The notes below the pieces were generated by a model. The model was not told the origin of the DNA. It searched no databases and was given only the letters and a program-made list of their open reading frames with translations. The position numbers were made by a program, and so were the translations under genes. Positions 1,270-22,997 of a DNA stretch of 26,671 nucleotides are shown here, piece by piece (within the stretch, counting starts at the first letter, position 1; each line of letters opens with the position of its first letter). Origin of the DNA: a virus. The stretch is taken from IMG/VR virus record IMGVR_UViG_3300010883_000362, positions 1 to 26,671 of that record; one strand, 5' to 3'.

Positions 1270-3171
1270 CTATACAGCGTACCAATCTGCACCATCGGAA
1301 ATGAATGTCACAGCTTCATTCTGATAATTAAGTTCTACGTTTCCAGCACCACCATCAATATTATCAGCACTAGCAATAGTTATTTTGTGACCATCATTAG
1401 TTTTCTTTTTGATTGTCACTGTAGTGCCATTGGCTACGTCGGCATTTAAAGTCACCGTTATTGGTGATCCACCTGTAGTATCTGCAAGAATATATCTGCT
1501 CGATGTAGCGGATATTGCCGTAGCAGAAGTGACCGTGCTAACAGTGTGGTTAATTTGACTAGCCGTAGCTGTAACGCCGTCGAGGATGTTAAGCTCGGCG
1601 GCAGTAGATGTGACATCTGTACCACCAATATCAAGAGTGGTAACGCTGATTTCTCCAGCCACCGTCACCACACCATCGGCAACCGTAATTAAGTCTGTAT
1701 CATCTGTATGGCCAATAGTGGACCCATTAATCACAACATCATCAATATCTAGAGACCCGCCAGAAATCAGGCCGGTGGTGGTAATGGTGCTTGCGCCATT
1801 ATCAATGTTACCAAATCCAGATGTTATGGAACCAGCGTTCAAAGCCCCAACTGTGGTTACATTACTTAGAGTATCCAAAGCGGTCTCAAAATATGTTTCA
1901 AAATCGCTTAGTGCCACTTGGACCATCGCGCCATTATCATTTACCACAACCCTGTCAGCATCAGCCAGCGTAGTTGAGGTGGCAGCAGTTCCACCGTCCA
2001 CGATGTTAAGCTCAGCAGCACTAGAAGTAACCAAAGTGTCGGCCAATTTAAGACCATAAGAGGCTTCATCATGAGAAGCAATATCAACAGTATAGTTACC
2101 ATCTTTGAAAACAACTTCAGCGGCGTCCAACTTAATCATATCAGGGACAGTAGCATTATGAATACCACCACCATCTGGAACTTTCAAGTCGGTGCCCTGA
2201 ACAATCCCCGCCGCACTATAAATAACAGCTTTGCTATTAACAACAGTACCGGCAACAGAACCATCCAAAAGGTTAAGTTCGGCAGTTGTGACGCTGGCCC
2301 CGTCCAGTATCTCTAGCTCTACCTCTGTGATAGCAGCCGAGCCAATGGTAAATCCAGTTGCTGTCACAGTGCTGTTGAAAGTAGCTGCTCCAGCCTCACT
2401 ACCATCAAGAGTTAAAGCGGTGATTACTTCATCTGCATCGTCCACCTTAAAGATAATATCAGCATCAGTTGCCGCAGCGTCTATGGTGATGTTACCAACT
2501 GAGGTTGTAATAGTAACAGCAGCATCACCAGTTGTAATGTCGTCAGCAGCAGTTTCTCCACCACCACTGGCATAAGTCTTAAGTTCAGAAGCAAGTACCA
2601 TCTTCATGGTGCCGCCGTCATTCACCAAAATGCCATCAGCGTCCACGATGGTACAGGATACTCTAGCAGTACCACCATCAATCTTGTTGAGTTCTTCTGG
2701 AGTTGAGGTAATCGCTGTAGTACTAGCAACAGCCAGCACTGGTAAATAACCATTAGCGTTGGGTAGATAAATTGTTTTGCTAGGGGTTGTTGGATCAATA
2801 ATTGTCAAAGTTGTTTCAAAAGCATCTGCCGTGACTCCCTCAAATACAACGGCATTTGCCGCATTCATCGTCACAGTATCAACAGTAGTTGTGGTGCCAG
2901 TGACCGTAAGGTCTCCGGTAACTGTAAGGTTGTCGGCAACAGTTACTTCAGAAGTGGCATGGCCAATTGTGATAGCCTTCCCGCTAGTGTCAGTTCCAAT
3001 CTTGAAAACTGAATTGCTATGGTCCCAAAAAAGCGAAACGTCTTGATCCGCACCGAACCAGACTTTATCATCATCTTGAAATTCTATATCTCCGTTGTCA
3101 TCAGCAAGATAAAATTTATTTGCTGCTGACTGACCTTCAGTAATTCCAAAAGCATGTGGTGAATATGACAT
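1270..3171 (-). CDS. Tail-fibre-like structural protein with AELNILDG repeats, 633 aa
   Basis: This is a long, low-complexity, beta-rich protein of the kind found as fibres in many aquatic phages. It starts at ATG 3171 with AGGAG 9 nt upstream. AEL(N/E)(I/L)LDG-type units recur at scattered places (ITEVELEILDGASVTTAELN, SAAELNIVDGGT, TAAELNILDGVTATAS). A second module of about 35 residues, DADRVVVNDNGAMVQVALS, occurs once here, with a diverged copy nearer the N-terminus (VDADGILVNDGGTMKMVL), and also occurs in the 1526-aa fibre. The C-terminal 80 residues (TVTIKKKTNDGHKITI, then DNIDGG, then FISDGADWYAV) match the C-terminal module of the neighbouring fibre genes. It has its own promoter-like element about 40 nt upstream. 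It probably encodes a trimeric fibre, but the exact role is unknown. Confidence 0.75.
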   Translation of the reverse strand: MSYSPHAFGITEGQSAANKFYLADDNGDIEFQDDDKVWFGADQDVSLFWDHSNSVFKIGTDTSGKAITIGHATSEVTVADNLTVTGDLTVTGTTTTVDTVTMNAANAVVFEGVTADAFETTLTIIDPTTPSKTIYLPNANGYLPVLAVASTTAITSTPEELNKIDGGTARVSCTIVDADGILVNDGGTMKMVLASELKTYASGGGETAADDITTGDAAVTITTSVGNITIDAAATDADIIFKVDDADEVITALTLDGSEAGAATFNSTVTATGFTIGSAAITEVELEILDGASVTTAELNLLDGSVAGTVVNSKAVIYSAAGIVQGTDLKVPDGGGIHNATVPDMIKLDAAEVVFKDGNYTVDIASHDEASYGLKLADTLVTSSAAELNIVDGGTAATSTTLADADRVVVNDNGAMVQVALSDFETYFETALDTLSNVTTVGALNAGSITSGFGNIDNGASTITTTGLISGGSLDIDDVVINGSTIGHTDDTDLITVADGVVTVAGEISVTTLDIGGTDVTSTAAELNILDGVTATASQINHTVSTVTSATAISATSSRYILADTTGGSPITVTLNADVANGTTVTIKKKTNDGHKITIASADNIDGGAGNVELNYQNEAVTFISDGADWYAV

Positions 3172-4360: not shown

Positions 4361-7300
4361 CTAAGGATGAACCGATATTCCATGGAGAATGTGATAGCTT
4401 GTACCGTCAGAAACGACAGTCATCACTTGATAAAGATCAGTAAGAATTTTCGAGCTTGCACCATCAATTGTACTCGCTGAATAAATGGTTACATCGTAGT
4501 CGCCATCGCCAATCATCTTGATAGCATATTTAGTTCCGGCTGGAGTGCTGCTGGGCAGCGTGATAGTGCAGGAATTATCACTTGTATTTACAAGAGTTAC
4601 AGACGTATCAGCCGTATGGCTGGTCGTTACCGTTCTCACATTATTCATATATTCTTTAAGATCATCAACTGCGCATTGAACCATTGTCCCATTATCATTA
4701 AGAACAACTCTATCGGCATCTACAACTACAGTCGCTGTGGCAGAATTATCGCCGTCTAAGATATTAAGCTCTTCTGTAGTTATAGTTACTCCGTCAAGTA
4801 TATTAATCTCTCCGGCGGTAGACGTTACGCCGTCAAGTATATTAAGCTCCCCTGTAGTTAGGGTCGCTCCATCAAGAATATTAAGTTCCGCCGTGGTAAC
4901 CGTTGCTCCATCAAGAATCTCTAGCTCAGCCTCCAGAATAGCCGCATCTCCAATGGTGAGACCAGTAGCGTTGAAAATTCCACCTTGATCCAGATGAGCC
5001 ACCGTTGCGCCGTCTGCCCTTTCCCACTCTTGCACCTTGACAATATTATCACTAGACTCTGCTCTAACTACCAGAGTGGCGCTTGGATTAATAGTTGCCT
5101 CACCAATAGACATCCTCTTGAGAGACATGTCACCAGCAATAGTAGTTCCTAGAGCAATCTTATTATTTATTTCTTCAACACCGCCACCAATCAACCTGTT
5201 GGTCCCACCAGCACCCACTGTTAGTTCAATATTAAGAGAACCTGACACGGCCTCTAAAGCGTTATCGCCAATGCCGATAGACCTTTGACTGGAAGCAAAC
5301 TGGCCAGCAGAGTCTCCGATAAAGACTGCGTACTGAGAATTATCTGCATCATACCCAGCGCTAGAGCCAATAAATACTGAGTGCGATGCGTTGACAGTAC
5401 CGTAACCGGTTCTATAGCCAACAAAGTTAGAGTAATCACAGCCAGAAGCATTAAGGCCAGCTTCTGGACCTATAAAACTAGTAAAATCACAGAATACAGC
5501 ATTGTCAGCAGACTTATAGCCGATCATGTTGTTGTAAGTATTATTGACTGCATCAATAGTACTAGTGTTTGTGAATGCGTGATTATAGTTATTAAGAATC
5601 CTTGAAGTAGTGTCATCTAAGTAAGTAGCAAACTCAACAATCTTCATCTTACCAAGTGTTCCACCCGTACTTAGAGCTAAGTATGAAGTATCGCTAGACA
5701 CCGTGGACACATCGGTTGCCTTGCTCATCTCCTCGATGTTTAGATTAAATACTTCGTTCTCTGCCGTAGTATCTATATAGCTACTAAGCCCTACTCCCGG
5801 TATAGTTATAATTCCACTAGTACTACCAATACTTGTACCATCACTAAATCTAACTGAACCTAATAGATTGAGGTCTCCCTTAAGCTCAGCGACTGGCCTA
5901 ATAGGACTGGGAACATAGTAGCTAGGATAAGTACTCATAGCATTTGCATTATGCCGGAGAGTAAATATTGTGTCTACTGTATCATCAGCACCCCTAAAGG
6001 TAAATGCAACACCGCCCTGAACTTGGTCATTGATCGTGTCAACCTTTTCAATGATTGAGCCAATTCCGTCATCAAATTGATCGTTATAATGCCTCAGTAC
6101 TAACTGGTCAACTCCCTGATCGGAAGTCACTATAAATCTAGCTCTTGGAACAGAGAGAAATCTCTCGTCAACAGATGGACCCATAAGCCCATCAAGAATA
6201 ATATTGTCTTCGTTGGCTCCAATTAGAATAGTATAATCAGTATCTGTTCCTCGACCAATTTCCTCCGTGCCGATAATAATACTATTGCTAACATCATTAT
6301 CAGAAGTCTTCAAGGCATTATGCCCAATGATTACATTGTGACTACCGCCGACTAAAGATCGACCAGTATTATTTCCCACAAGGGTATTGCCACTACCAGA
6401 GGTAATTCTATAGCCAGCTAAATACCCAAACGCCGAATTGCCTCGACTATTTGTTAGCTTGTTTAACGCCCTATCTCCAAAGGATGTATTCTCTCTACGT
6501 TCATAACCTAATATATGAGCTTCTCTACTACTAGGAGAAGATCTACCAGCAAATGTATTGCCGCTTGAGTCAGTATAGACCCCCTTTGCGCCAGATACAT
6601 CATAGATATTAAGACTTAAATCAAATCTGTTGCCCGCATCGTCCATAAAATATGGAGCTTGCGTTTGAAGATTGACCCCGCCCCAATACTGCTCAGATCC
6701 ATTCAGGCCGCTAATATAGATCTTTCCAAATTCAGACGTGATAGATGGAGCCTGCTTCTTACCCATCTCTCTTATACTGAGTACGGGTTTACTTCCACTG
6801 CCATCCACATCCCTATCATCAATCGTTAATGTCTCATTGGGGCTAGTTGTATTAATTCCAACCCGGTGATAAGAATCCTTGCTCCAATCAAGAGCGATGA
6901 TTTCTCTTCTAACACCACTCTGAAATACGCTTAAGTCTACAGTGCTTTGATTAAAATTATAGTCAAGCTCAAACCCTTGGACTCCACTATTTTCAGGAGA
7001 AAGAAGTTGCAAAGATGACTTGTTGCCTGAAGCGGAAGTCACTCTCAGTATAGCGTCGCCAGTAGCCTGAATATTAGTAATCGTATTGGGCAGAGGTGCA
7101 TTAAATCCATCTGAGGAATTAGTGATACCCACTAGACCCGGAGAACTCGACCTCATGATAATAAATGCATTCAGTGGGGTCGGTGTGTCATCATAAGCAG
7201 AAATTACAAGCCTGTCTGTCGCTTGATTATCTAGAATTGTATTTTTGGTATCTACATAATCAATTCCAAACCCAACAATATGCTCTCCCTGACTTCCGAC

Positions 7301-8941
7301 TTCTTTCCGCATAGTCCTGCTGACAAGTCTTTGGCCAACAGTAACACCTGATGACAAGGAAGAATAAGTAACCCTATATGCATTGACTTCACCAGACCCA
7401 ACAAAGTTAATATTCGAAACGTTTGCTAGACGACTATCTACACCACGGGGGTCAGGTTTAAACAAATCTTCAGTACCGAAAAAGATTGCATTTTCATCTA
7501 CAGTAGAACCGATCACCAAGTCTGTATCAGAATCAAACTCAGAAACTCCCTTGACAAAAATACCATAACCAGATGGGCCACAAGAAATCATGGACAGATT
7601 TTTTCTGCCAATAATTCTATCTGTTTTTAAATGGCTTCCAGAAGCAATATGGATACTAATATTGCTATTCCATGCAGATCTAGAATATGGACTATCCATC
7701 TCTAAGCAGGTAAGAGTCGCATCTGTAGAAGTAAAAATAAACTCATAGTCTCTTCTATAATCAATACCACTAGACTGTAGAACAAATCCTCCTCCCTCTA
7801 TCTGTTGATCCTGTAGCCAACCACATGGTGCGCCTCCTCCAGACACACAAATGTCTCCACTAGAGGCTAGATAAAGAGTTCTACACTCATAAATACAGCT
7901 ATTAATCTCTGTATAATTAAAAGTAGTGACATCAGCCGTTCCGCTAATAGTAATATTTCCAAAGTGAGCGTCCCACCTTAAGTCTGGAGTGCCCAAGGAA
8001 AACTCGGTATTCCAGAGTGGAACTATATTACCACGAGAAGTAACTAGACCTTCATCTCCAGACGGAAGATTGGTGCCAAGGCCTATGAGGCCGCCACTAG
8101 ATAAGAATATAACATCAGATTTAACATAGTCGCCTCCACCCGGCGTCTGCTCTGGGCCACCGCGACGTATAGAAAAATTACCTGAATCAGGATATTCTAA
8201 TACATCAGATACGAAGAGATTACGCCAACTCTTCTTCTCATGTCCAAGGTCATATATTCCAGACTCTGAAGGAGATACGGTTCCAGCAACTTGCAGCGTA
8301 CCATAGTTGTGTAGAGTGTCTGTACCTATGGCTAACACGAGATTATACAGGTCACCTCTCATGAGAGGAACTAAACCCGACCCCAAGGGGTTGTCACATA
8401 CCCCGCTTTCATCTATATTGTGACTGCCCAAGTAGAAGTTATAACTAGAATTTGTGCCTATATAATGTCCAGCAGCATGCCCGATAGCAATGTTATAATT
8501 GCCTTCTTTATTCGATCTGAGAGCATTGCTACCAATAGCAACATTGCCTGAACCATATATATTATTGGTAAGAGCCTGAAACCCTAGGGCGGAATTATTA
8601 TCCCCATAAAGGTTACAACTCATGGCATACGAACCTATGGCGGTATTAGAGAATCCGTCATAGTTGTTTCCCAGAGCAAAGTAGCCAAACGCAGAATTAT
8701 CTGTGCTACTATAACCGGCCAGATATAGATTCTTTATGGTGTCAATGCCAGCCTTAGTTGTTCTAACGTCAGGCGTGGAAAAGTTGAGAGAGTTTAGATT
8801 GTTGTCATCTGTGAATAGATGTACAGAGTCTATAATGTCAAGCAGGTTATGCCTGACATCATTAGGAGAAACTGCCCCAGTAGAATTATTGGGTATTTCT
8901 CGCTTTATATTATCTATGAGTTGTAACTTATCTACAATCAT
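4361..8941 (-). CDS. Giant tail fibre with YadA-like head repeats, 1526 aa
   Basis: This is the largest protein in the window and the likely main receptor-binding or long fibre. Residues 8-42 (a short helical segment with SPNDVRHNLLDIIDS) look like a phage-fibre N-terminal attachment element. Three blocks of YadA/Hep-Hag-type head repeats follow, with units such as NSAFGYFAL, NTAIGSYAM, NVAIGSNAL and YNIAIGHAAG. They lie at roughly residues 80-170, 815-905 and 1135-1235. These motifs form trimeric left-handed beta rolls in bacterial adhesins. Near residues 1345-1397 there is a tandem 13-residue ILDG repeat, then a DADRVVLNDNGTMVQ module. The C-terminal module (CTITLPSSTPAGTKYAIKM, STIDGAS, VVSDGTSYHIL) is shared with neighbours. 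The ATG at 8941 has only a weak GGGGT upstream. It may be translationally coupled to the gene before it. Confidence 0.85.
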   Translation of the reverse strand: MIVDKLQLIDNIKREIPNNSTGAVSPNDVRHNLLDIIDSVHLFTDDNNLNSLNFSTPDVRTTKAGIDTIKNLYLAGYSSTDNSAFGYFALGNNYDGFSNTAIGSYAMSCNLYGDNNSALGFQALTNNIYGSGNVAIGSNALRSNKEGNYNIAIGHAAGHYIGTNSSYNFYLGSHNIDESGVCDNPLGSGLVPLMRGDLYNLVLAIGTDTLHNYGTLQVAGTVSPSESGIYDLGHEKKSWRNLFVSDVLEYPDSGNFSIRRGGPEQTPGGGDYVKSDVIFLSSGGLIGLGTNLPSGDEGLVTSRGNIVPLWNTEFSLGTPDLRWDAHFGNITISGTADVTTFNYTEINSCIYECRTLYLASSGDICVSGGGAPCGWLQDQQIEGGGFVLQSSGIDYRRDYEFIFTSTDATLTCLEMDSPYSRSAWNSNISIHIASGSHLKTDRIIGRKNLSMISCGPSGYGIFVKGVSEFDSDTDLVIGSTVDENAIFFGTEDLFKPDPRGVDSRLANVSNINFVGSGEVNAYRVTYSSLSSGVTVGQRLVSRTMRKEVGSQGEHIVGFGIDYVDTKNTILDNQATDRLVISAYDDTPTPLNAFIIMRSSSPGLVGITNSSDGFNAPLPNTITNIQATGDAILRVTSASGNKSSLQLLSPENSGVQGFELDYNFNQSTVDLSVFQSGVRREIIALDWSKDSYHRVGINTTSPNETLTIDDRDVDGSGSKPVLSIREMGKKQAPSITSEFGKIYISGLNGSEQYWGGVNLQTQAPYFMDDAGNRFDLSLNIYDVSGAKGVYTDSSGNTFAGRSSPSSREAHILGYERRENTSFGDRALNKLTNSRGNSAFGYLAGYRITSGSGNTLVGNNTGRSLVGGSHNVIIGHNALKTSDNDVSNSIIIGTEEIGRGTDTDYTILIGANEDNIILDGLMGPSVDERFLSVPRARFIVTSDQGVDQLVLRHYNDQFDDGIGSIIEKVDTINDQVQGGVAFTFRGADDTVDTIFTLRHNANAMSTYPSYYVPSPIRPVAELKGDLNLLGSVRFSDGTSIGSTSGIITIPGVGLSSYIDTTAENEVFNLNIEEMSKATDVSTVSSDTSYLALSTGGTLGKMKIVEFATYLDDTTSRILNNYNHAFTNTSTIDAVNNTYNNMIGYKSADNAVFCDFTSFIGPEAGLNASGCDYSNFVGYRTGYGTVNASHSVFIGSSAGYDADNSQYAVFIGDSAGQFASSQRSIGIGDNALEAVSGSLNIELTVGAGGTNRLIGGGVEEINNKIALGTTIAGDMSLKRMSIGEATINPSATLVVRAESSDNIVKVQEWERADGATVAHLDQGGIFNATGLTIGDAAILEAELEILDGATVTTAELNILDGATLTTGELNILDGVTSTAGEINILDGVTITTEELNILDGDNSATATVVVDADRVVLNDNGTMVQCAVDDLKEYMNNVRTVTTSHTADTSVTLVNTSDNSCTITLPSSTPAGTKYAIKMIGDGDYDVTIYSASTIDGASSKILTDLYQVMTVVSDGTSYHILHGISVHP
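4751..4906 (-). repeat. 39-bp in-frame tandem repeat (4 copies plus a partial)
   Basis: Four consecutive 39-bp units begin at 4751, 4790, 4829 and 4868, with a degenerate partial unit from 4907. Each encodes a 13-residue unit of the form ILDGxTxTTxELN. The units differ at many third positions, so the array is old or under selection for the protein rather than a recent slippage product. It lies within the 1526-aa fibre gene, close to its C-terminal domain. Confidence 0.85.
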
Positions 8942-17037: not shown

Positions 17038-18891
17038 CTAATCATCGTATCTCATAAGTATTGAATCGAGACCGTTGTCTTCATACTGACTGGCCAATAT
17101 TTCTCCAAGGTTAACGCTTTTTCTAATCTGTCTATCCGTGGGGTGGTTGCCAGTAATTTTATTTTTTAGATTCTCGCAGGATACATCCGCTATAAGTGAT
17201 ATCGTAGTATCGGCTTTAGCAAAAGCATAACAAACAGTAACCATCATTGTAAGTAGGTTTTGTATTTTCCTAGAGAGTATAGACATTCGACATTGCCTGT
17301 CGGCCAACTTCAGTTGATACTTACGCATAAGGCTGCTTATCTCCCAAGCCGAACTTTGCAGATTTTTAATGGCGAAATTAGCATGGCAGACTAGATTCTT
17401 ATTGAACCCGATTGGGCGTATTCCACTCTTTATAGTTGTAGCCTCTGTAAAAATCCACTTAGCATATGGAACAAAAACTCTATAATTTTTAATCATGTCT
17501 TTGGGAGAGAGGCTCTTTTTCCCCAATTGGGACATGAGGTTTCCTACTGGCTCGAAATAGGTTTTCCCGTGATCTTTTACCAGACTTTTAAAGAATGCCA
17601 TATTGAGCATGTCGCCCTCTCCTTCGTAGATTAGGGGGGCCAGAAGGTCGTAAATATTATCTCCAATAATATGACCCCCTAGGAAAGATCTCCCGCCGTG
17701 AGTCTTCATGCACAAGTCAATAGCAGCTTCCTTTTGACACTCAGACCCAAAAGTTTTTGCTATGATGCACTCTAGCTCTCCTCGGTAGCCCTTATCTATG
17801 AGGCCGGAACACCAAGCTACCAAGGCGTCAGATGAGAGTATATAGCCAGCCAATCTGGCAATTCTGTCTTGAACAAGCTCTCTATTTTTGATAGGCTGTC
17901 CATACGTTGACCTATAGCTAGCCCAAGGAATCATTGATTCCAGCATAACCTTCATACATCCCGAAGCGTTGGCGCACAGGGACACCCTGCCTAGATTCAA
18001 CCCGTGATAGGCAACCGTCAGTCCGTTTCCACTCTCTAGGCTGATTAGGTTTTCTTTAGGCACTTTAAAGTCCTTAAACACCAAGGCGTTATTATACAAC
18101 TTACTAAGTGCGTATATATCATAGTTTACAATTTCAAAATGGTCAGTGTCTTCTTCTGGCAGCTCTACGATAATAACTTGAGGCTCGCCGTCTACAAGGC
18201 ATACGACAGACACAAGCCTTCCATAAATTGCATTGGTGATGAATAGCTTCTTTCCATTTATAAGGTAGTGATCACCATCCAAGCAGGCGGTAGTTTTTAG
18301 TGCGGTGAGGTCTGAACCAGCGCATGGTTCAGTTAAAGCAAAGGCAGAAAGAAATTCTCCGTTGGCCAGCTTGGGAAGATATTTCTCCTTTTGATATTCG
18401 CTACCAAATGTTCTAATGGGGTCGACGGACCCTATGCATCCATGTATAGAAGACAGGCCAGCTACACTCGCCTCGACGGAGGCCATCTTTGTAAGATAGT
18501 AGGAAAACTCGGAAAAAGAAACCGCAGGCTTTTCTGGCAAGGGAACTAGTTGTCCAAAATACCCAGCATCAGATAGATCTTTGAGAAGGTCTTCGCTTAG
18601 CTTTCCCTTATCATCATAAAGATTGCCCTTCTGCTTGAAAGACGAGGCAATACTCACACAGTTTTTTAGCATGGTAGAGTTTGGTCTATGGAAGTCGAAC
18701 TCAAAAAAGTTCTTAGTTGGAAACTCCCTACCCCACACAGCTTTAAAGGCGGGGCTGTTGTTGGTCTGGTATTTGTCTTCGAAAAGATGATCCACCTGAT
18801 CGTCTGCTGTATCCACCTTGCCTATACTTTTATACTCCTCTGCGCTTTTGCCACCTAGTTTCATAGCAGTCTCTGCGAATGATCTATTCAT
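17038..18891 (-). CDS. Acyl-CoA dehydrogenase family flavoprotein, 617 aa
   Basis: This is a complete acyl-CoA dehydrogenase (ACAD) family protein. These FAD enzymes normally oxidise acyl-CoA to 2-enoyl-CoA and pass electrons to ETF. The family signature AFALTEPCAGSDL is at residues 183-195. A second family segment, YRSTYGQPIKNRELVQDRIA, is at 326-345. THGGRSFLGGH is at 397-407, and LIYEGEGDMLNMAFF is at 420-434, with E423 at the position of the usual catalytic base. A C-terminal extension of about 170 residues follows. This gives a VLCAD/ACAD9-like length rather than about 380 aa. The start overlaps the preceding nuclease gene as ATGA, with GGAAGGA upstream, so the gene is embedded in the phage operon. 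Its role is unknown: lipid metabolism, or a non-catalytic use, is possible. Confidence 0.88.
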   Translation of the reverse strand: MNRSFAETAMKLGGKSAEEYKSIGKVDTADDQVDHLFEDKYQTNNSPAFKAVWGREFPTKNFFEFDFHRPNSTMLKNCVSIASSFKQKGNLYDDKGKLSEDLLKDLSDAGYFGQLVPLPEKPAVSFSEFSYYLTKMASVEASVAGLSSIHGCIGSVDPIRTFGSEYQKEKYLPKLANGEFLSAFALTEPCAGSDLTALKTTACLDGDHYLINGKKLFITNAIYGRLVSVVCLVDGEPQVIIVELPEEDTDHFEIVNYDIYALSKLYNNALVFKDFKVPKENLISLESGNGLTVAYHGLNLGRVSLCANASGCMKVMLESMIPWASYRSTYGQPIKNRELVQDRIARLAGYILSSDALVAWCSGLIDKGYRGELECIIAKTFGSECQKEAAIDLCMKTHGGRSFLGGHIIGDNIYDLLAPLIYEGEGDMLNMAFFKSLVKDHGKTYFEPVGNLMSQLGKKSLSPKDMIKNYRVFVPYAKWIFTEATTIKSGIRPIGFNKNLVCHANFAIKNLQSSAWEISSLMRKYQLKLADRQCRMSILSRKIQNLLTMMVTVCYAFAKADTTISLIADVSCENLKNKITGNHPTDRQIRKSVNLGEILASQYEDNGLDSILMRYDD

Positions 18892-19659: not shown

Positions 19660-19898
19660 TTTGCCTTCATGATCTTTACTTTCCGTCTTATCTGCCTACA
19701 CAGTAGTCTAGTCTTCACAGAGTCATCTTGGGCGAGTAGAAGTTTGACTAGGTTGTATACAGCCTTAAAGCATGCGTCATCGGGATTACGAGCCTCCACA
19801 AAAACAATGGGAAACATTGCGTTATATTTTCCCAGTGTGTAGGGCTTGAGGCTAACAATCACCTCGGTCATGTCAAGGTATACTTTGTAGATTGGCAT
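19650..19898 (-). CDS. Hypothetical protein, 82 aa
   Basis: No family is recognised. The N-terminal half has beta-like strands (PIYKVYLDMTEVIVSL, PIVFVEARNPDDA) and the C-terminal half is helical and basic (CFKAVYNLVKLLLA, RQIRRKVKIMKAK), so it might bind nucleic acid. It overlaps the end of the GDP-mannose dehydratase gene by 26 nt and the HNH start by 10 nt. The ribosome-binding site is weak. An alternative ATG at 19871, immediately after the dehydratase stop, would give 73 aa by coupling. The position suggests that it is real. Confidence 0.6.
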   Translation of the reverse strand: MPIYKVYLDMTEVIVSLKPYTLGKYNAMFPIVFVEARNPDDACFKAVYNLVKLLLAQDDSVKTRLLCRQIRRKVKIMKAKCQ

Positions 19899-20964
19899 TC
19901 AGGTCGTGTTCCATCATAACTTGTACTAGTTCTTCTAGTCCATGCGTTGCAGTCCAGCCAAGTTTTTCTCTAGCCTTGGAGGCATCTCCTCGAAGATAAT
20001 CCACTTCTGCTGGTCTATAAAAATCTGGATCAATTACTACTAAGTCGCTCCAGTCAGTAATACCGATATAGCTAAATGCATAATTCAGAAAATCCTTTAT
20101 ACTATGCGTATCACCAGTACATATGACATAGTCATCCGGCTGATCTTGTTGTAACATCAAATACATAGCCTCTACGTAATCTCCGGCATATCCCCAATCT
20201 CGGCAAGCGTCTAAATTTCCCAACCGAAGCTTTGGGTATTCGAATTCATCGTCATCTTCACGCCTATTTTTTATGTAAATTTCATCTACACCAAAGGAAA
20301 GAATGCTGTCGTGGTGAGAAATATGAAACCGATCTAGCCATTTGCAATAACCACCTATCCACTTGGTAATCTTTCTGGTAACAAAGCTTTCCCCACGCCG
20401 TTCTCCTTCGTGGTTGAATAGAATACCAGAACTAGCATGCAAGCCATAGGCTTCTCTAAACAGGCGGGTCATATAGTGAGCGGCAACCTTTGCTATAGCA
20501 TACGGAGATTGTGGTAAAAATTTAGTATCCTCATCTTGATATTTTTCACCATTCTTATTGATACTATGCGAGCCTCCAAACATCTCACTTGAAGACGCCT
20601 GATAAAATCTACACTGCAACCCAAGATCTACAATAGCCTGTAAGATATTTAAGCATCCTTTTCCAGTAATATCCCAAGTTAAACCGGGTTGCTTAAAGGA
20701 GACTCCCACATGCGACTGTGCAGCTAGGTTATAGACTTCATCTACATTCTCGTTATCCTTAAGAATTCCAATGATACTGAAAACATCTGTGATGTCTCCT
20801 TGAACAGCCTTGAAGTTAGCAATTCCTGATAGATGCTTGATTCTCTCTGTATTATCTATACTGCATCTTCTCGCCACTCCGACGACTTCATACCCCTTCT
20901 CTAGAAGTAGATCCGCTAGATGGCTCCCGTCCTGCCCGGTTATGCCAAATATAATTGCTTTCAT
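19873..20964 (-). CDS. gmd: GDP-mannose 4,6-dehydratase, 363 aa
   Basis: This enzyme converts GDP-mannose to GDP-4-keto-6-deoxymannose, the precursor of GDP-fucose and related deoxysugars. It is a short-chain dehydrogenase of the extended type, with NADP-binding GITGQDGSHL (residues 8-17), SSSEMFGG (124-131), SPYAIAKVAAHY (153-164; Y155 and K159 catalytic), LFNHEGERRGESFVTRKI (182-199) and LGNLDACRDWGYAGDYVEAM. The length is close to bacterial Gmd (about 370 aa). Compared with the E. coli enzyme as I recall it, there is an insertion of about 30 residues before LRLGNLDA. The start overlaps the upstream membrane gene as ATGA. It may modify host surface glycans or phage DNA or virion sugars. Confidence 0.95.
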   Translation of the reverse strand: MKAIIFGITGQDGSHLADLLLEKGYEVVGVARRCSIDNTERIKHLSGIANFKAVQGDITDVFSIIGILKDNENVDEVYNLAAQSHVGVSFKQPGLTWDITGKGCLNILQAIVDLGLQCRFYQASSSEMFGGSHSINKNGEKYQDEDTKFLPQSPYAIAKVAAHYMTRLFREAYGLHASSGILFNHEGERRGESFVTRKITKWIGGYCKWLDRFHISHHDSILSFGVDEIYIKNRREDDDEFEYPKLRLGNLDACRDWGYAGDYVEAMYLMLQQDQPDDYVICTGDTHSIKDFLNYAFSYIGITDWSDLVVIDPDFYRPAEVDYLRGDASKAREKLGWTATHGLEELVQVMMEHDLNANLQSIP

Positions 20965-21281
20965 TTTGTCTCCTCTTTCCTTCTCGCTCTAAATTTCCTT
21001 TTGATTGGCCATGTAATATAATGGCCTACAAAAAACTTAATTTCCTTCATGCCCAATTCCCGTCGAAGCTTATTCTCTAACTTTGTCACAGGACAGTCGA
21101 CCATTTGCGTAAAGGTCAAATTAAACACCCATGTCATTAGGGGTAAACTGATATACCAAGGTGTCATGAATGGCAAAACGAATATCGCAAATAGATTCCC
21201 AAAAACAACAAATAGATGAAAAGCAACAACTAGCTCCCACAGATGAAAAATCACGGCAGATCTTTTTGAAACACTCTTCAT
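20961..21281 (-). CDS. DUF2784-like small membrane protein, 106 aa
   Basis: This is a small inner-membrane protein with two or three hydrophobic helices (about residues 8-33 and 40-60). The feature that suggests DUF2784 is a conserved stretch after the helices: MVDCPVTKLENKLRRELGM, then FVGHYITWPIKRK. In that family the core is C-P-(L/V)-T-x-(L/W)-E-x-x-L-R followed by HY. The C-terminus is strongly basic (KRKFRARRKEE), consistent with a cytosolic tail. It ends with ATGA overlapping gmd and follows the glycine-rich membrane protein by 2 nt, so it belongs to the same translational unit as the ExbB/ExbD-like genes. The function is unknown. Confidence 0.65.
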   Translation of the reverse strand: MKSVSKRSAVIFHLWELVVAFHLFVVFGNLFAIFVLPFMTPWYISLPLMTWVFNLTFTQMVDCPVTKLENKLRRELGMKEIKFFVGHYITWPIKRKFRARRKEETK

Positions 21282-21283
21282 TC

Positions 21284-21892
21284 TTACTGCGATCCTTTCT
21301 CTGGTAATACTGGAGGAGGAAGTCGTTGGAATGAAATATCTCCACCCTCCGTAAGACTTCCTGCACCCTCTCCATCCTGTGATCCTTCGCCACCCCCTTG
21401 ACCAGATGGATCTTCTCCAGATCCAGCCTCACCTTTGCCCGACCCCGACTCACCCGACTCATTTAATCCTACAACTTGCTGGCCACCCCTGATCATGCCC
21501 AAGGCCTCCTGAGCTTTCTCGTGTAGCTTTCTTGTATATAGTAGCTTGTAAGCTCTAGGCTCCGAACTGTCGCCCCTCAAAAGGACTAGGTAGTCTGTCC
21601 AACCACTCGTCTTCTTTCGCTCCTTCAGGGGGTGTACCCAAGCAAAGATAGCTCCCCCAAACCCAGTCTTTCGGTCTGGCTCTTGAATGACCATCCAGTG
21701 AACATAAAACTCATCTGGAAGAGGCTCATCAGTTGGCCAGCCTTTAAAGCCCCTGATCGAAACTCCTACGGATAAACAGAAATATAATGCTACCGCGATA
21801 ACAAAGGCCTTTGTAGCCCAGTGGCCCTTGGAACCGATGATGACCCAAAGTAACAGCGACGTGATAACCGCAAAACCAATTGTAAGACTCAT
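21284..21892 (-). CDS. Two-TM protein with a glycine/serine/glutamate-rich tail, 202 aa
   Basis: The family is not named. Two N-terminal hydrophobic helices lie at about residues 3-20 and 27-46. A soluble domain follows (about 48-145, FKGWPTDEPLPDEFYVHW, GGAIFAWVHPL, SEPRAYKLLYTRKLHEKAQ). Next comes a low-complexity acidic Gly/Ser/Glu-rich linker (about 147-183) and a short end, ISFQRLPPPVLP. The soluble part with (P)RAYkLlYtRkLHE looks like a conserved phage protein family that I cannot name. It overlaps the ExbD-like gene at ATGA and is followed after 2 nt by the DUF2784-like gene. It is likely to be a partner of the channel-type proteins, inferred from this tight linkage. Confidence 0.7.
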   Translation of the reverse strand: MSLTIGFAVITSLLLWVIIGSKGHWATKAFVIAVALYFCLSVGVSIRGFKGWPTDEPLPDEFYVHWMVIQEPDRKTGFGGAIFAWVHPLKERKKTSGWTDYLVLLRGDSSEPRAYKLLYTRKLHEKAQEALGMIRGGQQVVGLNESGESGSGKGEAGSGEDPSGQGGGEGSQDGEGAGSLTEGGDISFQRLPPPVLPEKGSQ

Positions 21893-22494
21893 CTTCTTTC
21901 CTTAGCAGTTAAAGATATAGGTAATTCGTTTACTTCTATTACTTTCCCGTCTTTATCCAACTTAAATCTAAAAGCTGTCTTTTCGTCACCCTTGATATTA
22001 AGTATAACATCTCTCATGGCTACAGTCTTAAAGCTGGGATTTACTTTATCCAAACGAATGTTAACCGGAGTAGCCTGTGTCTCTGGCGAGTCATACTTGG
22101 AAAAGAGGTGAACATTGACGATATATTCTCCCGGCATAAATCCACGCAAGATAACTAGCTCAATATTCTCTTTATGGGTGATAGGTCCGAATTCCGTCTG
22201 TACAGTATCATTACGGTGCCCCAAGTCATCACGATCCAAATGCATTAGCCCCTGCTCCCTGCGCATGAATGCTACTAGGTTTCCCTGTGGGTCTTGCACA
22301 TACATATCGACATCATGATTCAACTCCGATGGCCACGTCACGGTTATGATGTAGTCAGCCTTGGCCTTAATATTGTTCTCATTCTTGCTGGGATTAATCA
22401 AAATAAAGGACAGCATAAACAATGCTGCAAAGCACAAGAGCGTATTAAACAACAGGTCCAAAAAGGCCAAGTTAGTATGGTAGTTCCGTTTCAT
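21889..22494 (-). CDS. ExbD/TolR/MotB-like protein with a YfaP/DUF2135-like domain, 201 aa
   Basis: The layout is that of ExbD, TolR and MotB: a short basic cytosolic N-terminus, one TM helix (about residues 9-34, LAFLDLLFNTLLCFAALFML), then a periplasmic domain. An Asp early in the helix (D13, in LAFLDLLFN) is at the place of the proton-carrying Asp in that family. The periplasmic part is not ExbD-like. HDVDMYVQDPQGNLVAF (60-76) and PGEYIVNVHLF (121-131) resemble the YfaP/DUF2135 beta-sandwich. It overlaps the ExbB-like gene upstream by ATGA and the next gene downstream by ATGA. It probably forms a complex with the ExbB-like protein and couples proton flow to something in the periplasm. Confidence 0.7.
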   Translation of the reverse strand: MKRNYHTNLAFLDLLFNTLLCFAALFMLSFILINPSKNENNIKAKADYIITVTWPSELNHDVDMYVQDPQGNLVAFMRREQGLMHLDRDDLGHRNDTVQTEFGPITHKENIELVILRGFMPGEYIVNVHLFSKYDSPETQATPVNIRLDKVNPSFKTVAMRDVILNIKGDEKTAFRFKLDKDGKVIEVNELPISLTAKERR

Positions 22495-22997
22495 TTTCTT
22501 ACCTGATCAATCGCCTGATTAAGATTAAAATACTGAACCTTTAAAAGAGAACTACAAATTAGACCCGTCAGCGTACTATACAGCGCCGTTGACATACCAG
22601 CACCAAGATTCTTGATTAACCCCTGCACCGTATTGATATCGGAAACGTCTACCTGAGCAAGTCCCGACAGCATCATAACAAATCCGATCACCGTTCCCAT
22701 CATGCCGATACTCAAACACAGGTCGCTGGTAAACCAGCCCACTTCTACTAGATGTTCAATCTTTTCTACAAGGTGCTTATCTTCTCCCTCTTGGTCTAAA
22801 AAGCAGCTAAGCCTCCACGTCTTCACACCACACCACGTAGACATACCCATAAAAATAGCGAGAAGTACAAAGCTTAACTTTGTTGTATCTTCATTCCACA
22901 AGATTAACCATCCGCCATTGATAGCTATCAACACTATGCCCACTATAGTTGCAGTAAAAATAAGCCACCACTTAAGAAACAGCGTGTGTTTAATCAC
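22491..22997 (-). CDS. MotA/TolQ/ExbB-like proton-channel subunit, 168 aa, GTG start
   Basis: This is a four-helix inner-membrane protein: about residues 9-33, 41-61, 88-113 and 127-152. The last two helices carry the MotA/TolQ/ExbB pattern: SIGMMGTVIGFVMML (96-110), then GLIKNLGAGMSTALYSTLTG (126-145). This corresponds to GllGTViG and the later 'gia.AL.tTa.Gl' helix with its conserved threonines. Such proteins form pentamers around a dimer of an ExbD/MotB-type partner, here the next gene. The cytosolic loop is short. The start is GTG at 22997, with a GGAGGGTGG-type ribosome-binding site about 6 nt upstream. Its first 8 nt overlap the preceding miniprotein gene. The phage role is unknown. Confidence 0.78.
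   Translation of the reverse strand: MIKHTLFLKWWLIFTATIVGIVLIAINGGWLILWNEDTTKLSFVLLAIFMGMSTWCGVKTWRLSCFLDQEGEDKHLVEKIEHLVEVGWFTSDLCLSIGMMGTVIGFVMMLSGLAQVDVSDINTVQGLIKNLGAGMSTALYSTLTGLICSSLLKVQYFNLNQAIDQVRK

Follow-up and report, generated by a model that had tools for sequence, protein, structure and literature searches.

A conserved three-gene phage module with a motor-like membrane pair and a possible role at lysis

The locus and the A-B-C unit

The window analyzed here is the whole 26,671-base IMG/VR virus record IMGVR_UViG_3300010883_000362 (positions 1 to 26,671), and our subject is a run of four short minus-strand genes within it, called A, B, C, and D, flanked by a sigma-factor gene and a terminase gene. 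A reading made from the letters alone (below, the sequence-only reading) had placed four open reading frames (ORFs) at this location, between a sigma factor and terL, and both the ORFs and the flanking genes are present. The four genes are the following (TM, transmembrane):

22491-22997, minus: gene A, 168 amino acids, GTG start; MotA/TolQ/ExbB-like, four predicted TM segments
21889-22494, minus: gene B, 201 amino acids; one TM helix followed by a periplasmic beta sandwich
21284-21892, minus: gene C, 202 amino acids; two TM helices and a small alpha/beta domain
20961-21281, minus: gene D, 106 amino acids; DUF2784 membrane protein (PF10861, 1.4e-10)

A and B overlap by 4 nucleotides, as do B and C, and a gap of 2 nucleotides separates C from D. 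These junctions had been taken as an argument for a joint function of all four genes. They are indeed tight, but the chain continues on both sides, since a 55-amino-acid ORF upstream overlaps A by 8 nucleotides and D overlaps a GDP-mannose dehydratase gene by 4. Thus, the junctions alone are insufficient to delimit a four-gene unit.

The unit is delimited by its recurrence. A tblastn search with B recovered 27 records from phages of Rhizobium and Sinorhizobium that belong to several unrelated types and range from the 60-kb temperate phage 16-3 to phages of 150 to 170 kb; in these records, B is annotated as hypothetical or left unnamed. In all seven of the rhizobial phages inspected, B is preceded by A and followed by C, with small genes or homing endonucleases sometimes intervening. 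In three of the rhizobial phages (L002, L006, and L007; L numbers denote loci), homing endonucleases of GIY-YIG/Seg-like and HNH types are inserted among A, B, and C, and the set remains unbroken. In IMG/VR, a scan with a B alignment yielded 256 relatives, and the 80 best of these were retained. Hidden Markov models (HMMs) for A and C, which drew on the window plus the seven rhizobial phages, then detected the partners at 90 of 91 loci, almost every one of these loci having been gathered via B alone. Over 156 non-redundant loci, drawn from the B-based virus scans and a genome scan and scored by permissive E-values combined with a position rule, A adjoins B in 152, the other four being contig ends. 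C likewise adjoins B in 152; two of the remaining loci are contig ends, and two (L199 and L200, near copies of L201) are rearranged, with C relocated upstream in the order C-protease-A-B. Where the three genes stand together, short overlaps join them in most cases. The carriers are many tailed phages from the sea, freshwater, and soil, the largest being a contig of 527 kb.

Gene D behaves differently. No relative of it was found in any other locus searched, and L009, which is 98% identical to the window in B, has no D. The DUF2784 protein was therefore rejected as a member of the module, of which it had been proposed as the fourth component. A co-occurrence of all four genes across phages, suggested as a check of the sequence-only reading, thus reduces to A, B, and C, which are conserved together, D being confined to the window. 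The core of the earlier proposal, a phage-encoded ExbB/ExbD-type pair with a partner, was borne out by the retention of A-B-C as a unit in nearly all loci. Their co-occurrence is far above chance, and the three-gene unit is well supported.

A motor-like pair and its partner

The MotA/TolQ/ExbB-like character first proposed for A is confirmed at several levels. The window protein matches Pfam MotA_ExbB (PF01618) at 1.4e-8 with 35 bits, above the cut-off of 22.9, and so do all 69 aligned A proteins match this family. Throughout these 69 sequences, TM3 carries an invariant G98-x-x-G101-T102-x-x-G105 and TM4 an invariant T142-x-x-G145, while a short charged loop spans about residues 60 to 88. When the A profile was compared with the PDB, MotA, TolQ, and PomA were the only matches up to E 0.05, ExbB and ZorA-type chains appearing at higher E, and the GxxGT and ALxTTLxGL motifs of A align with the same pore-helix segments of MotA, TolQ, and PomA.

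An aspartate in a single N-terminal TM helix is typical of ExbD, TolR, and MotB. B has such a residue, Asp13 (FLDLLFN...), near the start of its sole TM helix, and it is invariant in alignments of 8, 16, and 66 diverse sequences. The description of B as ExbD/MotB-like therefore stands for the helix and its aspartate. It does not extend to the rest of the protein, for which the ExbD family was absent among the 25 families shown for the 66 members at E 0.1 and for the window protein at E 1, and the beta sandwich is a different one.

The periplasmic domain of B (about residues 47 to 189) has nine invariant positions in the 66 sequences: D61, D63, D68, D87, D89, D90, D96, N110, and E112. These seven aspartates, one asparagine, and one glutamate suggest a Ca2+ site, and the domain is probably Ca2+-binding. 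The AlphaFold2 model from the 66 sequences (mean predicted local distance difference test score [pLDDT], 87) comprises the TM helix and a beta sandwich; it lacks the first Met, so that its numbering is one lower than the residue numbers used here. By VIA-align, the model resembles the TerD structures 3ibz (Z 11.9 over 141 residues, root-mean-square deviation 4.4), 2qz7 (Z 9.8), and 2kxt (Z 9.0); the top five also include 9a6r_B (Z 10.4) and 2qng, of unknown function (Z 10.0), and the next different family is DUF4425 at Z 7.0. The predicted fold of this domain is thus closest to TerD. The likeness is one of fold only, as hhalign of B against four TerD-family proteins of plasmid R478 gave a probability of 0.4, i.e., no sequence-profile similarity, leaving a TerD assignment by sequence unsupported. 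TerD was not among the Pfam families shown for the 66 B members, and a plain Foldseek search of the model against the PDB returned no significant match. The YfaP/DUF2135-like identity initially given to this domain is weak: the window protein reaches 14.8 bits (E 0.032) against a cut-off of 22, and only 8 of the 66 members give a sub-threshold match, the best at E 0.0039. DUF2135 was accordingly rejected.

C had been described as two TM segments, a soluble domain, and a Gly/Ser/Glu-rich tail, in agreement with the alignment and with the AlphaFold2 model (pLDDT 78). The loop between its two helices has a charge of +1 or more in 66 of 68 sequences, which suggests that both ends of C are periplasmic. 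The helices are followed by a small alpha/beta domain, a Gly/Ser/Glu-rich linker, and a conserved end; in many members, a low-complexity linker leads to a terminal F/Y-x-x-LPP-x-x-x-P-x-K motif. The window protein has no Pfam match, and Foldseek against the PDB found nothing significant. VIA-align gave only middling OB-like rows, and the significant BFVD matches were three phage proteins only, the named one being a Rhizobium phage protein.

Altogether, the MotA_ExbB match in 69 of 69 A proteins, the pore motifs aligned with MotA, TolQ, and PomA, and the invariant Asp13 argue for a motor, and the motor-like nature of A-B is well supported by these sequence features. In the model that we propose, a ring of A would surround a B dimer in the inner membrane and work as a proton-driven motor like the 5:2 MotAB/ExbBD/TolQR complexes, with a stoichiometry and a proton flow suggested by motif and family evidence. 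Protons would pass the invariant Asp13 of B and the conserved TM3/TM4 threonines of A, and their flow would move the periplasmic, probably Ca2+-binding, beta domain of B. C may act as a third subunit, anchored next to the ring, whose soluble domain would lie in the periplasm and relay the motion to a target in the cell wall or the outer membrane. Late in infection, the complex, together with endolysin and spanins, would weaken or remodel the envelope for lysis.

Lysis genes, chromosomal copies, and competing explanations

The proposed link to the cell wall and to lysis is based on C-lysozyme fusions and on endolysin and spanin neighborhoods, found on five branches of the B tree. In one clade (L061, L081, L093, L095, L096, L098, and near copies), the C frame continues into a complete GH24 phage lysozyme, matching PF00959 at 5.8e-50 (L061) and 2.3e-48 and the PHROG endolysin at 7.6e-64; an ATG stands at the junction, and in most fusions GGAG comes before it. 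Elsewhere, a GH108 endolysin and overlapping Rz/Rz1-type spanin genes lie just upstream of A (L046, L047, L052, L057, and L058), or an M15 endolysin is found within about 0.5 kb before A (L083, L106, and L111; PHROG 894, 1.7e-46 for L111). The order in L070 is Rz-like protein, A, B, C, ClpP-like protease, and GH24 lysozyme. In L193 and L196, as in other 16-3-like phages, A-B-C is preceded by an Rz-like spanin and by a GH24 endolysin whose N-terminal part includes a hydrophobic segment resembling that of signal-anchor-release (SAR) endolysins. In the 16-3-like group, almost every stand-alone lysozyme is within about 2 to 6 kb of the module. On a quick tree of B, these contexts, fusion included, occupy five separate branches; beyond the fusion clade, there are four branches with three unrelated endolysin families. 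Counting all endolysin matches, 10 of 26 fall within 3 kb of the module against 2.5 expected, many of them coming from relatives.

Proteases also neighbor the module. Most 16-3-like loci encode a trypsin-like protease with a signal-like N terminus immediately upstream of A, and such a protease adjoins the module in L001-L002, L006-L007, L181-L192, and L201, the L201 version being longer and DegP-like. In L070 and L202, its place is taken by a ClpP-like protein whose N terminus carries a hydrophobic segment. Downstream of B, L199-L201 encode two further proteins: a small XhlA-like membrane protein and a lipoprotein bearing a hydrophobic segment at its C terminus, a potential unimolecular spanin.

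Several observations weigh against a role at lysis. With one match per lineage and the fusion clade excluded, 3 of 11 endolysins are within 3 kb of the module, where 0.98 would be expected, a marginal difference (p about 0.06). The endolysin found is at least 17 kb from the module in L062, L078, L082, L132, L134, L144, L148, and L207, and many long contigs yielded no endolysin of the families searched, whose coverage is incomplete. No lysis gene is seen in the window. In phage 16-3, A-B-C lies between h and int, in a region described as silent (map in PMC10460002), and the internal ATG of the fusion genes may also yield free lysozyme. A GH19 search of the contigs was uninformative, as nothing matched, controls included. 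A universal linkage of the module to endolysins was rejected, several carriers having a distant endolysin or none found. Lysis, one of the roles put forward in the sequence-only reading, gains from the fusions and from the lysis-gene neighborhoods in several branches, but this context is not common to all carriers.

Copies outside phages bear on the same question. A genome scan detected B on ten contigs, and the stand-alone chromosomal A-B-C operons are listed here:

L171, L173, and L208-L211; L174 and L175; L176 and L179: stand-alone chromosomal A-B-C operons

L171, L173, and their relatives are stand-alone operons; of six genomes from a marine alphaproteobacterial order, four have the operon between the same neighbors. 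Desulfobacterales and Patescibacteria contigs with A-B-C also look chromosomal. These copies speak against a lysis role as well: they suggest that the three genes suffice and that their action need not be confined to lysis. Once they had turned up, the idea of a strictly phage-specific module was rejected. They fall inside a phage-rich part of the B tree, which fits transfer from phages, with the caveat that the genome scan favored a single sequence pattern.

Among the competing explanations, a Tol-Pal-like maintenance of the envelope would have the module keep wall and outer membrane in order during a long infection until programmed lysis, the cellular copies doing likewise for streamlined bacteria. 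The vertically kept chromosomal copies in small-genome marine Alphaproteobacteria and the carriage by very large phages are in line with it, as are the chaperone and Clp genes near the module in one clade. In the marine phages L062, L082, and L086, ClpS follows the module (PF02617, 3.6e-31 in L062), with ClpP, Hsp20, or DnaK-like genes nearby. Nevertheless, no OmpA/Pal/TolA-type partner was seen, and the C-lysozyme fusions and adjoining proteases suggest wall cutting rather than protection, so that we regard maintenance as unlikely.

Superinfection exclusion or inter-phage defense, in the manner of Zorya, is similarly improbable. The motor would sense or resist the envelope damage caused by an incoming phage, while C would stop DNA from entering or the wall from being digested. 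The solitary copies on chromosomes of unrelated phyla do resemble portable modules, and the genes are found in temperate phages and prophages beside non-structural genes. A has weak ZorA matches (best, 2.9e-7), which lie in the domain common to all MotA/ExbB proteins; there is no ZorB, ZorC, or ZorD match and no nuclease or helicase partner, and A is without the long ZorA tail. Moreover, the conserved synteny within one marine order is unlike a defense island, and the lysozyme fusion and adjoining endolysins suit lysis better.

Lysis timing by depolarization, with A-B as a leaky proton channel collapsing the membrane potential to trigger holins or SAR endolysins, could draw on the SAR-like lysozyme directly upstream in L193/L196 and on small holin-like membrane proteins near the module in L058, but it is very unlikely, as a mere leak needs neither conserved coupling residues nor elaborate periplasmic B and C, and many carriers have no such endolysin adjoining the module.

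We therefore retain, with a probability of roughly 0.45, the model of a 5:2-type proton motor in which C relays force and which is used with endolysin and spanins at lysis. The envelope or cell wall is likely the target of the module, and the lysis stage is the best single reading of its timing, at somewhat under even odds. The stronger version is doubtful: a dedicated phage motor, separate from the holin, endolysin, and spanin systems and with cellular stand-alone relatives, that would use the proton motive force at lysis to cut the wall or disrupt the outer membrane by mechanical means.

Some other genes of the window deserve mention. The GDP-mannose 4,6-dehydratase gene (19873-20964, minus) directly follows D, and its presence near the module in 16 related loci suggests surface-sugar modification. 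A complete acyl-CoA dehydrogenase gene with three Pfam domains (17038-18891, minus) lies in the phage late region, where such an auxiliary metabolic gene is unusual. Two very long structural-type ORFs (4361-8941 and 1270-3171, minus) with repeated ELNILDG motifs probably encode tail fiber or virion surface proteins.

Comparison with known systems

A-B shares with ExbBD, TolQR, and MotAB/PomAB the MotA_ExbB domain and TM3/TM4 motifs of A, the N-terminal TM aspartate of B, and the gene order A then B. It differs in the minimal A, with a loop of about 30 residues, and in the periplasmic part of B, a TerD-like sandwich that is neither ExbD/TolR- nor OmpA-like, while C resembles neither the TonB nor the TolA of Ton and Tol systems. 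With the tellurite-resistance, Ca2+-binding TerD family, the B domain has in common its predicted fold and many invariant acidic residues; it differs by the absence of profile similarity and by the attached motor helix, which TerD proteins lack.

A recent survey places ZorAB among such motors (PMC12204202), and Zorya also pairs a MotA/ExbB-type protein with a single-TM partner, in keeping with the weak ZorA HMM matches of A. Unlike Zorya, A-B-C is mainly phage-carried, without ZorC/ZorD, a long ZorA tail, or a ZorB match, and PADLOC found no match for B, C, D, or the 55-amino-acid ORF. Zorya membership was rejected because only the shared MotA/ExbB domain matches. By the tests made on these sequences, the module is a member of neither the Zorya nor the ExbD nor the DUF2135 families.

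With regard to phage lysis cassettes (endolysin, holin, and Rz/Rz1 spanins), several branches carry the module within or beside such a cassette, and one branch has it joined to a lysozyme. None of the three proteins matches a holin or spanin family, and the spanins present alongside indicate that the module is no simple spanin replacement. We came across no account of a phage-encoded motor of the ExbBD type or of an A-B-C module in the open-access literature searched, and a paper on relatives of 16-3 does not discuss these genes (PMC10460002).

If the lysis role is true, phages leaving Gram-negative cells would draw on the proton gradient in one step of their exit, ahead of its destruction by holins. 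Should the module serve another purpose, it still constitutes a widespread, unnamed phage system, testable in cultured Rhizobium and Sinorhizobium phages. The 5:2 proton motors of recent surveys are cellular, working in flagella, Ton, Tol, gliding, and Zorya; A-B-C would be a compact three-gene phage version, in which the periplasmic domain is unusual and the third subunit is new.

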